Shown here: positions 18,286 through 23,644 of the stretch, piece after piece
How positions within the stretch are numbered: position 1 is the first letter of the stretch
How the letters are laid out: each line of letters starts with the position of its first letter
Assembly: GCF_000969985.1 (NCBI RefSeq)
Contig: NZ_CP009526.1
Coordinates: 496,001 to 560,000, forward strand
Source of the DNA: Methanosarcina barkeri str. Wiesmoor
Lineage (GTDB): Archaea; Halobacteriota; Methanosarcinia; Methanosarcinales; Methanosarcinaceae
Direction: 5' to 3'
DNA length: 64,000 nt
Translations under genes and position numbers: made by a program
Notes under the pieces: generated by a model
Seen by the model: only the letters and a program-made list of their open reading frames with translations
Told to the model about the DNA's origin: nothing
Databases searched by the model: none

Positions 18286-18591
18286 TCAGTTTTTTTTGCT
18301 AAAAACTTTTCCCAGCCCTAAACTGATTGCCAGTACTGCAAGTGTTCCAACAGCTATTGCTGCTACTTCTCCCCCTTTTCCCAAGCCTTCTATTGAATAA
18401 TCAGGCATCGGAGAGCCTACTACAGGTTCAGTCTTTTCAATTTTGGACATCTTCGATTCTTCAACTACCCCTCCAGCAGCACTTTCCAGTCCGTCGGGGT
18501 CAGAGGATGCAAGAAAAGGGGCTAGAACCGCGAGCAGAATTGCAATTGCAATTCCGACGTACAAGAATTTCATGTTTGATTTTCTGCTCAT
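18286..18591 (-). CDS. PDGLE-domain protein (orphan nickel/cobalt transport subunit)
   Basis: 101 residues with an N-terminal membrane helix (FLYVGIAIAILLAVLAPFLA), the diagnostic DPDGLE motif near residue 32, and a C-terminal helix (GGEVAAIAVGTLAVLAISLG). PDGLE proteins replace or are fused to CbiN/NikN in ECF-type cobalt and nickel importers and normally sit beside CbiM, CbiQ and CbiO. None of these is adjacent. AGGAGG lies seven bases before ATG 18591. The composite transposon's right end is 60 bases downstream of its stop, so former partners may have been displaced; that is inference. An EcfT-like fragment lies 4.7 kb to the right. Confidence 0.8.
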   Translation of the reverse strand: MSRKSNMKFLYVGIAIAILLAVLAPFLASSDPDGLESAAGGVVEESKMSKIEKTEPVVGSPMPDYSIEGLGKGGEVAAIAVGTLAVLAISLGLGKVFSKKN

Positions 18592-19319
18592 GCATGTGCC
18601 TCCTTTTTATGCTTTTCTGGTCTGGCAGTGTAATTATCCTCAAGAAGGTCAGGACGGGATTCCCTGAATTGGATTTACTCGTATTATGTAGTTTTTTAAA
18701 CTCCTTCACTTACTCTTAATGTTTTATCACTGCAAGACGGTAAATTTTTCAGAAAATAATGCCCCGACTGCGTAAGAATATTATTAAAAAAGTTAATAAA
18801 TTATAACAGAAAATAACCCAAAAGTCTTAAATATTAGCTGGTAATATCGATAAAAGAATCTCTGGCGAACAGACACAAAATAAAATTACCTCCTAAATCG
18901 CCTAAGTCATCCGAACTCCTTTTTTCCCTGCCTGTGGTAACAAAGCAGGCAGGAACTGGATGCAGAGCTTCTGAATTCCAGGTTAAACTGATGATTTTTT
19001 TCATAGTTATTTATTGTCTGAATTTAATCAAACTTTTTTAACCCTTGCAATGGAGTGTTCTGATTTTATGCATATTAGTGCGAGAACCAGGTATACTCAA
19101 TGTTACATAATATAGAAGTAATTTTGAGCTTCAGACTCTGATTTATTATTTCGGCAATGACTTTAAGAGAGTGTCTTTGATTACTATTCGCATAAGTTTG
19201 GCATCGTCTTTATTGTATAATTTCACTCATATTTTTCTCCCCTATATTTGTTTTTTTCTGATATTTTTCCAGTTCTTGATGTTCAAGCTTTTTAAGGGAA
19301 TTTTTCAATTTATTTGCCC
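18592..19319. other. 728-bp gene-free interval
   Basis: No supported gene. A perfect 8-bp inverted repeat, CCTGCCTG and CAGGCAGG with an 11-base spacer, lies at 18927-18953, upstream of the PDGLE gene on the minus strand. It does not match a riboswitch consensus that I know. The rest is AT-rich. Confidence 0.4.
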
Positions 19320-20306
19320 TCATCTCTGGTTATCATCAATTCTGTCATACAGTTTTTCCAGATCTTTCTGCAACCTGTAAACCTCCTTTTTCCATATTTT
19401 TTTATCAAATTCCATACAGGGGCCCATTTTCAAAGCTGTTAGTTTCACATAATTCTGGGAAATTTTTCTGTTGTTGCAGGGAAGGCCGAAAGCCAGATCT
19501 GTTTTTTTGATGCTGTATTTCTCGTGGATCAGAAACTCGTAAAGTTCAGTAACCAGGTCTGGCTTTCCTTCGGAATTTTCGGAAAAGATTGGGCAAAGAT
19601 CAACAAGATTCCTTAGGTGGAACTGGACGCCACGACTTTCAGGGCACAATTTCTTCGAGTTTGCAAACTTAAGCAGTTCTTTGAATTCAAGGAAAATATT
19701 TGTCTGCTCAAAACATGAGGGTAGAGTTTTTCCAAGGAAAATAAGGGTATGTATGCACTCATGAAAGAGGATTTTTGCTATCAGGAATTCGATTCTATCC
19801 TGAAGGTTCCATAACTTTTCGACCAGTTTCTTTTCCCACAACTCATAAGGATTTACCAGGACAAGGGATCGGTATATTATTTTCTTGTCTTCTCTAGAAA
19901 TTATCTTTTTTGGCTCGAAGGCTAACCCTGGCATCATTCCAATAAATTGCACTCGGACCGCCAGATCCCAACAGTGTTTCCATTCCCCAAAACGCACACA
20001 TTTTACCCGATAGTATTTTCCGTCAAAGTTAACTCTTTCTATTAGCCGGTACAGATCTTCACTTTGTTCTTTGATAAGAGCTTTTATCACAGTTTCCCGG
20101 TAAATGTTCAGATCGAGATAGAGAAGCCCTGGAGGAAAAAGTGAATAGTCAGGAGCAGGATTAGAAACAGGATAAGTAAAAGGAGATAAGTATAAGGCAA
20201 CAGGAGAGGTTGGTGAAGGTGCAGGGAATAAATCATCCCGCACTCTATGTACCAGTAAGGTATTTTTTTCCTTTGGCGAAACTTTCTTTGTTCTTATTCC
20301 CTGCAC
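19320..20306 (-). CDS. Putative zinc metalloprotease-like protein (HExxH), family unknown
   Basis: 328 residues. The only clear signature is HECIH in ILFHECIHTLIFLG near residue 182, the zinc-binding HExxH motif of metallopeptidases, set in a helix as expected. A proline-rich N-terminus (SPTSPVALYLSPFTYPV) has no obvious signal peptide. The C-terminal part is basic and helical. The start at GTG 20306 is uncertain; it lies close to the predicted transcription start set by TTTATATA at 20337-20344. An 11-bp palindrome just upstream of that box suggests dedicated regulation. Peptidase activity is inference from one motif. Confidence 0.6.
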   Translation of the reverse strand: MQGIRTKKVSPKEKNTLLVHRVRDDLFPAPSPTSPVALYLSPFTYPVSNPAPDYSLFPPGLLYLDLNIYRETVIKALIKEQSEDLYRLIERVNFDGKYYRVKCVRFGEWKHCWDLAVRVQFIGMMPGLAFEPKKIISREDKKIIYRSLVLVNPYELWEKKLVEKLWNLQDRIEFLIAKILFHECIHTLIFLGKTLPSCFEQTNIFLEFKELLKFANSKKLCPESRGVQFHLRNLVDLCPIFSENSEGKPDLVTELYEFLIHEKYSIKKTDLAFGLPCNNRKISQNYVKLTALKMGPCMEFDKKIWKKEVYRLQKDLEKLYDRIDDNQR

Positions 20307-20909: not shown

Positions 20910-21556
20910 CAGTTTCTGAAATTGGTTTTAAGTTTACATAATATTTGCAAGGCTGCCGAAAAAAGTTCTAAACTTCTCTCTGGATAATTGAACTTTTTCA
21001 AACAAACTGAATATGGATGTAGAATTGAAGCCTTTTAGGTTTTTAACTGAAAAAGTCAAACTATATTTATTTAATATGAGAGTAGACAAAGACTTCTCTT
21101 ATAAGTTTGTGAAGGTATTATTTCATACTCATCCCCTTCAATTTGGATTTTATCATATAGTTTATAACGTTTAATGTATCGTTTGATTGAATTTGTTTCT
21201 CAAATTTAGTCATATTCTTGAATTTTTCACAAAACCATGAAATTTATTTTCCCATTATTCTGAAGTAGATATCTATATTCCTCTAAAATGTCGCATTCCT
21301 CTAAAATGCCGCAACTTTTTTATTTTCACATCGTTAACATATATCTTTTTTTTGTTTTCGTATGGTTTTACTGATTTTTACTAAGCCATCTTACTTTTTT
21401 TGTCTTATTTTTTACTTAATACAATGAAATTTTTTAAATACGCTTACTTTTTTGAAATTGTCGAAATGTTTATATAAATCCCACAGAAATTAATTATATA
21501 CAATATATATTTTTATTAATATATTTTACATAAATAACACGGAGTAGTGTGATCTC
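20910..21556. promoter_or_regulatory. Long AT-rich region with nicotianamine synthase promoter
   Basis: No gene is seen. ATTCCTCTAAAATG followed by T/C-CGC is doubled near 21277-21310. TTTATATAA at 21469-21477 is a good TATA box for the nicotianamine synthase pair, giving a leader of about 55 bases. A further AT-rich stretch (TATACAATATATATTTTTAT) follows at 21496-21515. Confidence 0.5.
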
Positions 21557-22429
21557 ATGAACAGCTTACTAAGTGCTGAGGGCAGCAGTTTACTACCTCC
21601 ATTTCAAGACTATGAGCCGGAATTATATGACATCAGGTCCCATATCTTGCATTTTTACAGCAATATTAAGGATCGTGATTTAAGCATAATTGCAGAATCA
21701 AATATGACTGATCTCTATGAGATATTTTCCGAGCTCGATGAACTTGGGCATCTGGATATTTCTGACGGTCTATGTCAGGCCTTACTTAGAGACCCGGTGA
21801 TCAGTTCCGTCCTTCCTGTGATTTACACCAGCTATACTCATTTTTTTAGTCTGCATGAGACTCAGCTAGCAAAAAATATCCTGGCTTGCAAGGAACCCTG
21901 GAAAATGCTGGAATCTTTTCCTCTATATCCCAGATACGAAAAAATGATCAGGACTCAAGTTCAGGCCTCCCCCGGAATTAAAGTGCTGGCTTTCATAGGC
22001 TGCGGTCCCCTTCCTGTTACTCTACTTCTTTTCAGTAAATTATACGGCATCCGTTGCATTGGTGTAGATCAGGACCCTGAAGCGGTGGGTCTGGCAAAAA
22101 GCTGTATAAAGCACTTTGGGCTTGAAAAGGAAATCAGTATTCTTGAGGGAGACGAAACCGTACTTTCAAAAATTGGATGGGACTCTGTGCTTATAGCAGG
22201 ACTTGCCGAACCCAAACAGCGCATCTTTGAGAACCTACATATGATGATAAAAAATCGAAAATCGAGTTCTAAAAAGCCTGTTTCAGTTTGCTATCGCAAC
22301 TATAGCGGCATAAGACAATTGCTATACTGGCCAGTCCAGCCGGAACAGACTAAAGGTTTCAGAAAAATAAAAGAAATCTATCCTGCTGGAAAAGTAAACA
22401 ATACCCTAGTCTTCATGGAGTGTGAGTAA
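21557..22429 (+). CDS. Nicotianamine synthase-like protein, first of pair
   Basis: 290 residues matching the nicotianamine synthase family, which joins aminocarboxypropyl groups of S-adenosylmethionine (and in archaea also glutamate) into metal-chelating opine-like metallophores. The SAM-binding Rossmann motif is seen in VLAFIGCGPLPVTLLLFS (about residue 140) with the acidic GVDQDPEAV after it, and a conserved N-terminal helical domain precedes it. Its stop overlaps the next gene by 8 bases. No export or opine dehydrogenase gene is adjacent. Confidence 0.85.
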   Translation: MNSLLSAEGSSLLPPFQDYEPELYDIRSHILHFYSNIKDRDLSIIAESNMTDLYEIFSELDELGHLDISDGLCQALLRDPVISSVLPVIYTSYTHFFSLHETQLAKNILACKEPWKMLESFPLYPRYEKMIRTQVQASPGIKVLAFIGCGPLPVTLLLFSKLYGIRCIGVDQDPEAVGLAKSCIKHFGLEKEISILEGDETVLSKIGWDSVLIAGLAEPKQRIFENLHMMIKNRKSSSKKPVSVCYRNYSGIRQLLYWPVQPEQTKGFRKIKEIYPAGKVNNTLVFMECE

Positions 22430-23240
22430 CATTCAAAAAATCGATGTTGAGCCATTAATTACTGAATTTCGCCAGATCTATGCCCAGGTAAAAGATCTTA
22501 AAGAAACCGATATCCTGGATAATCCCTCTCCTGAACTGTATGCCGTGTTTAAAAGGCTGGATGAACTGGTATCTCTGGATATAGATGAACAGTCTATTGA
22601 GGTACTCTTTGAAAGCCCGGATTTTAATATTCTGATTGCTGAGATTTCTCGCTTTCGGTTTTTATACAATTTGAAACTTGAAATCGAAAAAGCAAAAAGT
22701 CTTCTTGAAAGCTCGAATCCGTGGCAAACTCTCCAGAATTTTACGTTTTATCCGAACTACTTGCAGCTTGCCCGAACTGAATATACAGGTTCAGGTCTTA
22801 AACCAAAGGATTGTGTTTTTTTTCTTGGAAGCGGCCCTCTACCACTTAGTCTGATAATGCTCTGTCGCGAACATGGTCTTTTCGGAATCGGAATTGAACA
22901 GGATGGGAAAAGGGCAAGTCTCTCTCGGGAGGTCATTGCTTGTCTCGGTCTTTCCGAAAGTATCGAGATCATCGAAGGAAATCACTTCACCCTGCCCCTT
23001 AAAACCAGATGTGACCTTTACATGGTCGCTGCCCAGGCTGAACCCAAAGAAGAGATATTCGAGCACCTTGCAAAAGTCCTTCCCAAAGGAAGTAAAGTTT
23101 CCTACCGCCTTTATGAAAAGGGCCTTCGGAGAATTTTGGACAGTAATTTCCTCTTTGAACTGCCTTCAGGATTTGAAGAATATCTCAGGGTTCAGCCGGA
23201 ACCTCCAGTTAATAATACGGTTGTATTTTTAAAGAGATAA
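22422..23240 (+). CDS. Nicotianamine synthase-like protein, second of pair
   Basis: 272 residues, clearly paralogous to the preceding gene and in the same order of motifs (ELYAVFKRLDELVSLDI, FTFYPNYLQLARTEY, FLGSGPLPLSLIML, GIGIEQDGKRA, AQAEPKEEIF, VNNTVVFLKR). It starts at GTG 22422 inside the end of gene one, so translation is probably coupled. The two proteins may form a heterodimer or act in sequence on the same product. Both keep the GxGPLP loop. The tandem arrangement is the unusual point. Confidence 0.85.
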   Translation: MSNIQKIDVEPLITEFRQIYAQVKDLKETDILDNPSPELYAVFKRLDELVSLDIDEQSIEVLFESPDFNILIAEISRFRFLYNLKLEIEKAKSLLESSNPWQTLQNFTFYPNYLQLARTEYTGSGLKPKDCVFFLGSGPLPLSLIMLCREHGLFGIGIEQDGKRASLSREVIACLGLSESIEIIEGNHFTLPLKTRCDLYMVAAQAEPKEEIFEHLAKVLPKGSKVSYRLYEKGLRRILDSNFLFELPSGFEEYLRVQPEPPVNNTVVFLKR

Positions 23241-23290: not shown

Positions 23291-23644
23291 TCAGTTCTCA
23301 GAAGGGCTAAGGAAGTAGTGTAAGCAGTGGAAGCTCTTTTTAGATATAATGGTAGTATAAATATGCAGCAGTAATATGCAGCCTGCACTCAGAAGCAAAA
23401 ATAAGACTTCCTGAGCTCTGATCTTTGTTCTGTAATAAGCTTTTTCGTGGTCCCTTCCGTAGCCTCTGCAAAGTATGCTTATATAGGTTCTTTCTCCCTT
23501 GAAAATTGAACTAATACTGTTTCCTACCTGCTCGATGACCCATTTTCTTTGCACATCTTTGTTCCATATATCAAAGAGTGTTGTTTGCTGTGTTGTTATG
23601 GTTTGTACTTTTATATTTCTGAAGTTTGAGAGATAATTATACAA
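23291..23644 (-). pseudogene. Probable EcfT/CbiQ permease C-terminal fragment
   Basis: A 117-codon frame. Its middle part IEQVGNSISSIFKGERTYIS followed by ILCRGYGRD resembles the C-terminal coupling region of CbiQ-type ECF transporters, whose arginine-glycine motif contacts the ATPases, and it ends with one hydrophobic helix (EVLFLLLSAGCILLLHIY). The N-terminal membrane helices are missing, and the frame begins 24 bases from dinB on the other strand. No ATPase gene follows. I read it as a decayed remnant; an unrelated small membrane protein remains possible. Confidence 0.4.

Follow-up and report, generated by a model that had tools for sequence, protein, structure and literature searches.

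Genes A and B of Methanosarcina barkeri str. Wiesmoor, which lie in the 64,000-nucleotide stretch analyzed here (the window), encode two putative nicotianamine synthase (NAS)-family enzymes that, with slightly better than even likelihood, cooperate in the synthesis of a single nicotianamine-type ligand, which would bind nickel or possibly cobalt and act with ECF-type uptake. Support comes from membership in the NAS family, the predicted fold, the catalytic residues, a conserved gene overlap, ancient pairing, purifying selection and gene linkage. Every methyl-coenzyme M reductase needs nickel, and the acquisition and handling of this metal in methanogens and methane-oxidizing archaea are poorly known. 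The NAS pair and the genes linked to it, which encode nickel/cobalt importers, a methyltransferase and, among ANME-type relatives, also a nickelochelatase, offer a concrete candidate pathway, and this linkage suggests that the pair helps the cell to obtain or handle metal for methane formation. Because Methanosarcina is genetically manipulable, the idea is directly testable there.

Two NAS-family genes in one overlapping unit

The features of the unit are given below, where MtNAS denotes the enzyme of Methanothermobacter thermautotrophicus (PDB 3FPE).

21557..22429, + strand: gene A, NAS-like, clade on the MtNAS side of the tree; 290 aa, ATG start; catalytic E101 and Y127; loop GCGPLP; Q134 where most NAS have E
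22422..23240, + strand: gene B, NAS-like, the other major clade; 272 aa, GTG start; catalytic E87 and Y113; loop GSGPLP
22417..22429, + strand: conserved junction GGAGTGTGAGTAA, with the TAA of A (22427-22429) within the first codons of B

Both proteins score above the curated cut-off of the Pfam NAS profile PF03059 (65.3 bits for A and 117.6 bits for B versus 27.1), and the best solved relative of each is MtNAS (E = 1e-37 for A and 2e-31 for B). They are 32% identical to each other; relatives of B within Methanosarcina show 70-82% identity. The ORF coordinates show that the two genes, both on the + strand, share exactly 8 nt. These scores, coordinates and loops confirm the preliminary description of two full-length NAS paralogues that share 8 nt and both retain GxGPLP.

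MtNAS is described as using E81 and Y107 (PMC10491745, available text), and the plant equivalents of these residues are reported to be essential (PMC10248798, available text). Alignment places A E101 and Y127, and B E87 and Y113, at these two positions. The preliminary description had proposed comparing the catalytic glutamate and tyrosine with the Methanothermobacter enzyme and had named a paralogue without catalytic residues as evidence against its view; both residues are kept in A and in B, so neither paralogue is of that kind. Among 103 aligned NAS proteins, including all 13 A and 14 B, E81 is present in 102 and Y107 in all, and A retains most of the near-invariant positions in addition to E81, Y107 and GxGPLP. 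Gene A differs from MtNAS in lacking an equivalent of E114: glutamate occupies this position in 88 of the 103 proteins, and the 13 A proteins carry histidine (10) or glutamine (3). Both A partners of family f7 have glutamine there.

AlphaFold models of A and B were built from shallow alignments (5 and 12 rows) and have mean pLDDT values of 79.9 and 73.3, respectively. The top VIA structural match of both is MtNAS (Z = 26.8 for A and 23.7 for B), spanning 257-258 residues, so that both proteins are predicted to share its two-domain fold. CntL of the staphylopine pathway is second (Z = 21.3 and 17.4) and resembles A and B in predicted fold and reaction type. We regard A and B as putative NAS-family 3-amino-3-carboxypropyl transferases that use SAM. 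The earlier suggestion of an “opine-type” chelator is not supported: A and B score 30.6 and 31.4 bits against the NCBIfam CntL equivalog, whose cut-off is 350, and the opine dehydrogenase profile PF10100 (Staph_opine_DH) was found in 0 of 111 family genomes, with a control that was also silent in 14 of 14 genomes.

Both reading frames are under purifying selection, and the pair is far beyond chance. NG86 dN/dS values against the two nearest relatives are 0.17 for A and 0.11-0.15 for B; across six comparisons they range from 0.14 to 0.25 and from 0.11 to 0.24, respectively.

The GTG start of B at 22422 overlaps the last codons of A. All 15 Methanosarcinaceae pairs read, damaged ones included (14 pairs plus L061), show the junction pattern GGAGTGTGNRTAA, and the two f7 pairs overlap by 8 nt (L124) and 17 nt (L123). 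GGAG stands only one base ahead of the GTG. Since this spacing is too short for an ordinary ribosome-binding site, B is likely to be translated by re-initiation after the stop codon of A. The conserved overlap and the co-inheritance of A and B favor joint action. An Rfam scan of the window returned a single tRNA only, with no riboswitch or other RNA control, and a search for promoter words shared upstream of the pairs yielded A/T-rich words and start-codon context, with no regulator site. The region upstream of A (21295-21556) is A/T-rich and contains a TATA-like stretch; CTTAC words are repeated there in several relatives.

Under the favored reading, A and B would be co-produced by translational coupling. 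Most likely, one enzyme would transfer a first aminocarboxypropyl group from SAM to a starter amino acid, and its partner would add the second, with the proteins arranged as a hetero-oligomer or as a relay. The class I methyltransferase encoded beside the genes in many relatives may tailor the product. The ligand would then act with ECF-type nickel/cobalt uptake and, in ANME-type relatives, also with a nickelochelatase that belongs to the F430 pathway. It could do so outside the cell, as a nickelophore that is secreted, or inside it, as a carrier of nickel. We infer this division of labor, the complex formation, the product, its metal and its location or secretion from the features listed in the opening paragraph. 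One point against this reading is that transporters of the CbiM type are generally regarded as carriers of free ions rather than chelates.

Nickel and cobalt genes near NAS genes

In other Methanosarcina the pair is mostly found between CbiM plus a PDGLE-type N component and CbiQ plus CbiO, with the transporter genes on the opposite strand. The linkage was counted at loci with at least 8 kb of sequence to either side. A CbiM gene is found within 8 kb for 10 of 12 B genes and for 8 of 10 A genes, but for none of 18 members of the other NAS clade of Methanosarcina, which served as an internal control (Fisher p = 2e-6 for B and 1e-5 for A, from rows that are not independent). A random site in the M. 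barkeri genome, which has four other CbiM loci, has CbiM nearby in about 1.4% of cases. Of the 14 loci represented in the tree by their B protein, 8 have a class I methyltransferase gene within 2 kb of B. No CbiM or CbiQ match was found in the flanks of the f7 pairs, which are short; this also counts against the favored reading.

NCBIfam names the pair-linked ECF components of Methanosarcina as “cobalt” transporter parts, which counts against nickel, yet the N component matches PDGLE rather than the Pfam CbiN domain. This transporter may therefore carry either nickel or cobalt. For the ligand, nickel is the more likely metal, with support from the wider gene context. In genera g7 and g11 a single NAS gene lies on the same strand as NikK (DUF4198, PGF-CTERM)-NikM-NikL-CbiQ-CbiO. 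At L080, L081 and L083 it starts 31-33 nt past CbiO and faces a methyltransferase of the pair-linked family. Families f3 and f4 (genomes named ANME-2 cluster or Methanosarcinales archaeon) and f11 (ANME-1-like, as a guess) combine NAS with NikK, NikL, NikM, CbiQ, CbiO and a methyltransferase in other gene orders. The NAS-linked genes belong to the known Nik/CbiMNQO and NikKMLQO ECF families and differ from the known systems in being linked to NAS genes. NikK/NikL and NikN are assigned to nickel uptake in a 2009 survey, which, in its available text, detected only NikMNQO-type variants in archaea (PMC2667541); here, NikK/NikL-like genes are found in several archaeal genomes.

A CbiX-family gene is located beside or between NAS genes at six loci (L100, L103, L106, L140, L142 and L144). 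The NCBIfam F430_CfbA nickelochelatase equivalog (cut-off 120) was run on three of the six proteins and gave 152.5 (L041, equal to the L103 locus), 130.8 (L140) and 132.1 (L142). For the copy that G121 has between its NAS genes, the match is only partial (35.9 bits). Seven genomes of this group were searched, and each contains a further strong CbiX-family match (86-93 bits) at another place, so the NAS-linked gene is an extra copy. The preliminary guess of nickel or cobalt is therefore backed by CbiM-type, NikKML-type and CfbA-type neighbors in relatives.

Two further NAS clades, X (26 rows) and Y (17 rows, on the side of B), are found in f3, f4 and f11. They occur together in 13 genomes, in 11 of these within one local cluster, and clusters contain up to three or four NAS genes (L117, L138). 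Nine genomes have X only and three have Y only, although many of these genomes are incomplete; that not every ANME-type genome has both clades counts against a joint product. At L137 (8772-11727) three tandem NAS stretches adjoin a NikK-M-L-Q-O operon; one ORF of 484 aa has NAS at residues 20-162 and a long remainder without a match of its own.

A broader proposal, which we consider less likely than not, is that Methanosarcina and ANME-type archaea share two-component NAS systems, in which two anciently distinct enzymes form an obligate pair and make an undescribed nickel ligand that passes imported nickel on to CfbA and F430. If true, methyl-coenzyme M reductase would have a nickel supply system of its own.

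Whether the ligand leaves the cell is a separate matter. It is quite possible, at a little under even likelihood, that it is no secreted metallophore but an intracellular nickel or cobalt buffer or carrier, like plant nicotianamine, with NAS, importer and nickelochelatase forming an internal line to F430 or corrinoids; such a carrier is compatible with a joint enzyme of A and B. The CfbA-type chelatase gene next to NAS genes at six loci suggests an internal carrier, and the linked CbiM/NikM-type transporters are importers. Secretion is compatible with two other observations, which speak against the carrier: the NikK-type protein has a PGF-CTERM surface anchor that would suit capture of an external complex, and the L124 f7 pair is followed by MacB-like export-type ABC genes.

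A and B are members of a known family, but the conserved two-enzyme unit and its linkage to nickel/cobalt ECF genes, a methyltransferase and CfbA were not found in the open-license literature searched. That literature yielded no link of NAS to nickel/cobalt ECF transporters, CfbA or Methanosarcina, and no reported nickel ligand for methanogens or methane-oxidizing archaea. For a Methanobrevibacter, NAS genes are mentioned in a 2024 paper, whose available text guesses at a high metal demand (PMC10819710). A 2023 paper on nickel uptake by methanogens never mentions nickelophore, metallophore or nicotianamine (PMC10617489).

An ancient and unevenly preserved pair

The NAS tree was calculated from 103 rows. 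NAS matches that scored no more than 100 bits, or whose length fell outside 230-360 aa, were dropped; broken NAS copies are thereby under-counted in the tree and in the linkage counts. The weak NAS-like pairs with a FeoA domain (L147-L150 and L122) were excluded as a different group. A proteins, MtNAS and two f8 proteins fall on the opposite side of a branch from B proteins (SH-aLRT 100), and A occupies a long branch. In two f7 genomes of the same class the A-B order is as in Methanosarcina, and each of the two genes is sister to its Methanosarcina counterpart (support 99 on the A side and 88 on the B side). A single clade of all A and B is rejected with p-AU 0.0026, a result to be read with caution because of the long branches in the test. 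Note that constraining Methanosarcinaceae A and B without the f7 members gives p = 2e-72; this version is too easily rejected, and 0.0026 is the fair value. A recent tandem duplication was rejected on the same grounds, the SH-aLRT 100 branch and the p-AU of the joint clade. The tree, the f7 gene order and the rejected joint clade indicate that NAS genes of two ancient types came to lie side by side and have since been inherited as a unit.

The preliminary statement that archaeal NAS genes are usually single does not hold for this class, in which 29 of 63 NAS-positive genomes have at least two matches (some being fragments of one gene) and NAS clusters of 2-4 genes are common. The conserved pair and its gene linkage also suggest a greater age and a wider spread of two-enzyme NAS systems than the single-enzyme view implies.

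The ancient divergence also bears on an alternative that we consider unlikely, namely that A and B are independent enzymes making two different ligands, with the overlap serving only co-regulation. They come from anciently diverged clades, and the histidine or glutamine at the E114 position of A could mean different substrates. MtNAS, moreover, is described in the available text as one enzyme that alone performs both transfers to glutamate (PMC10491745), as opposed to the two diverged enzymes in one overlapping unit seen here; two enzymes are thus not chemically required, which also counts against the favored reading. Against independence, the A-B order and junction are conserved across two families, and among ANME-type loci 11 local clusters contain members of two NAS clades.

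Sequences of both A and B are present in 14 of 30 genomes of the genus (M. barkeri Wiesmoor included), G099 has only a 5'-truncated B, and one more genome of the family, G005, also carries the pair. Ten of these 15 pairs (G000, G005, G075, G077, G083, G084, G085, G087, G097 and G103) have uninterrupted, full-length reading frames for A and for B. The remaining five are damaged by a frameshift in A (G096 and G090), an in-frame TAG in A (G098), an insertion in B (G082) or decay of both (G089). A is interrupted while B is open at L053 and L060 (frameshifts) and L054 (in-frame TAG), which counts against joint production of one ligand; the L053 frameshift lies near a run of six C and could be a sequencing error. 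B may work alone, or the loci with an interrupted A may be decaying. The TAG at L054 (8219-9085) follows codon 236 of A and represents either pyrrolysine insertion or a broken gene. Methanosarcina can read TAG as pyrrolysine.

These interruptions, with the long branch of A, speak for an alternative in which A is a subunit with weak catalysis or a regulatory role and ordinary thermonicotianamine is made by B alone. We consider this improbable, because A keeps E81, Y107, GxGPLP and most near-invariant positions and its dN/dS (0.14-0.25) is like that of B.

A broken ECF locus beside the pair

The window contains the following parts of an ECF locus, with remnants defined by comparison to L047.

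18286..18591, - strand: PDGLE-type N component (CbiN/NikN-like), 101 aa, intact
18591..18662, - strand: CbiM remnant, last 24 residues
23291..23644, - strand: CbiQ remnant, last 80 residues (match 23354-23578)

Two deletions are seen when the window is compared with L047, one of about 1.07 kb between 18661 and 18679 and one of about 1.66 kb between 23592 and 23594; the first removed the rest of CbiM, and the second removed the N-terminal part of CbiQ together with CbiO. No CbiO and no remnant of the pair-linked methyltransferase was found in the window. The genome has 34 class I methyltransferase matches, the best of them 43% identical, and one of these may stand in for the missing gene. A simple move of the lost CbiM elsewhere was rejected, since the CbiM proteins of the four other loci are at most 35% identical to it. 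Given these four loci, metal uptake is covered elsewhere in the genome. The broken locus counts against the favored reading; even so, the NAS pair stayed under purifying selection although two deletions broke the transporter. With only the N component intact, the pair does not depend on the linked ECF transporter.

That the ECF linkage is mere chance, one ancestral insertion inherited by the genus, is very improbable: Methanosarcina loci do mostly share one ancestral location, so that the 10 of 12 are not independent, but NAS with nickel/cobalt ECF genes recurs in other genera and families in different orders (L080-L083, L109-L121 and L137-L142) and the other NAS clade gives 0 of 18.

Between the N component and A, the window encodes a 328-aa protein (19320-20306, - strand) with an HECIH (HExxH-like) motif; it has no Pfam or NCBIfam match and, of 16 loci that were compared, 5 have it conserved close to the pair. 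Distant NAS-like/methyltransferase genes of family f20 (L147 9000-10819, L148 9193-10757 and L149 8779-10598) are paired with 4-nt overlaps, and others lie at L122 (9106-10557) and L150 (9357-10397). One such gene per locus has a C-terminal FeoA domain (L149, L122 and L150 checked), and these pairs are possibly an iron-related cousin of the paired NAS design. The third NAS of the M. barkeri genome has the following coordinates.

C2:1459263-1460084 (L045 9246-10130): NAS, member of the separate Methanosarcina NAS clade

Genes of this clade (L045 and L065-L084) are often beside a 97-aa ArsR-type regulator and a MerR/GyrI-type regulator rather than CbiM, and the clade is likely to have a different regulation or role.
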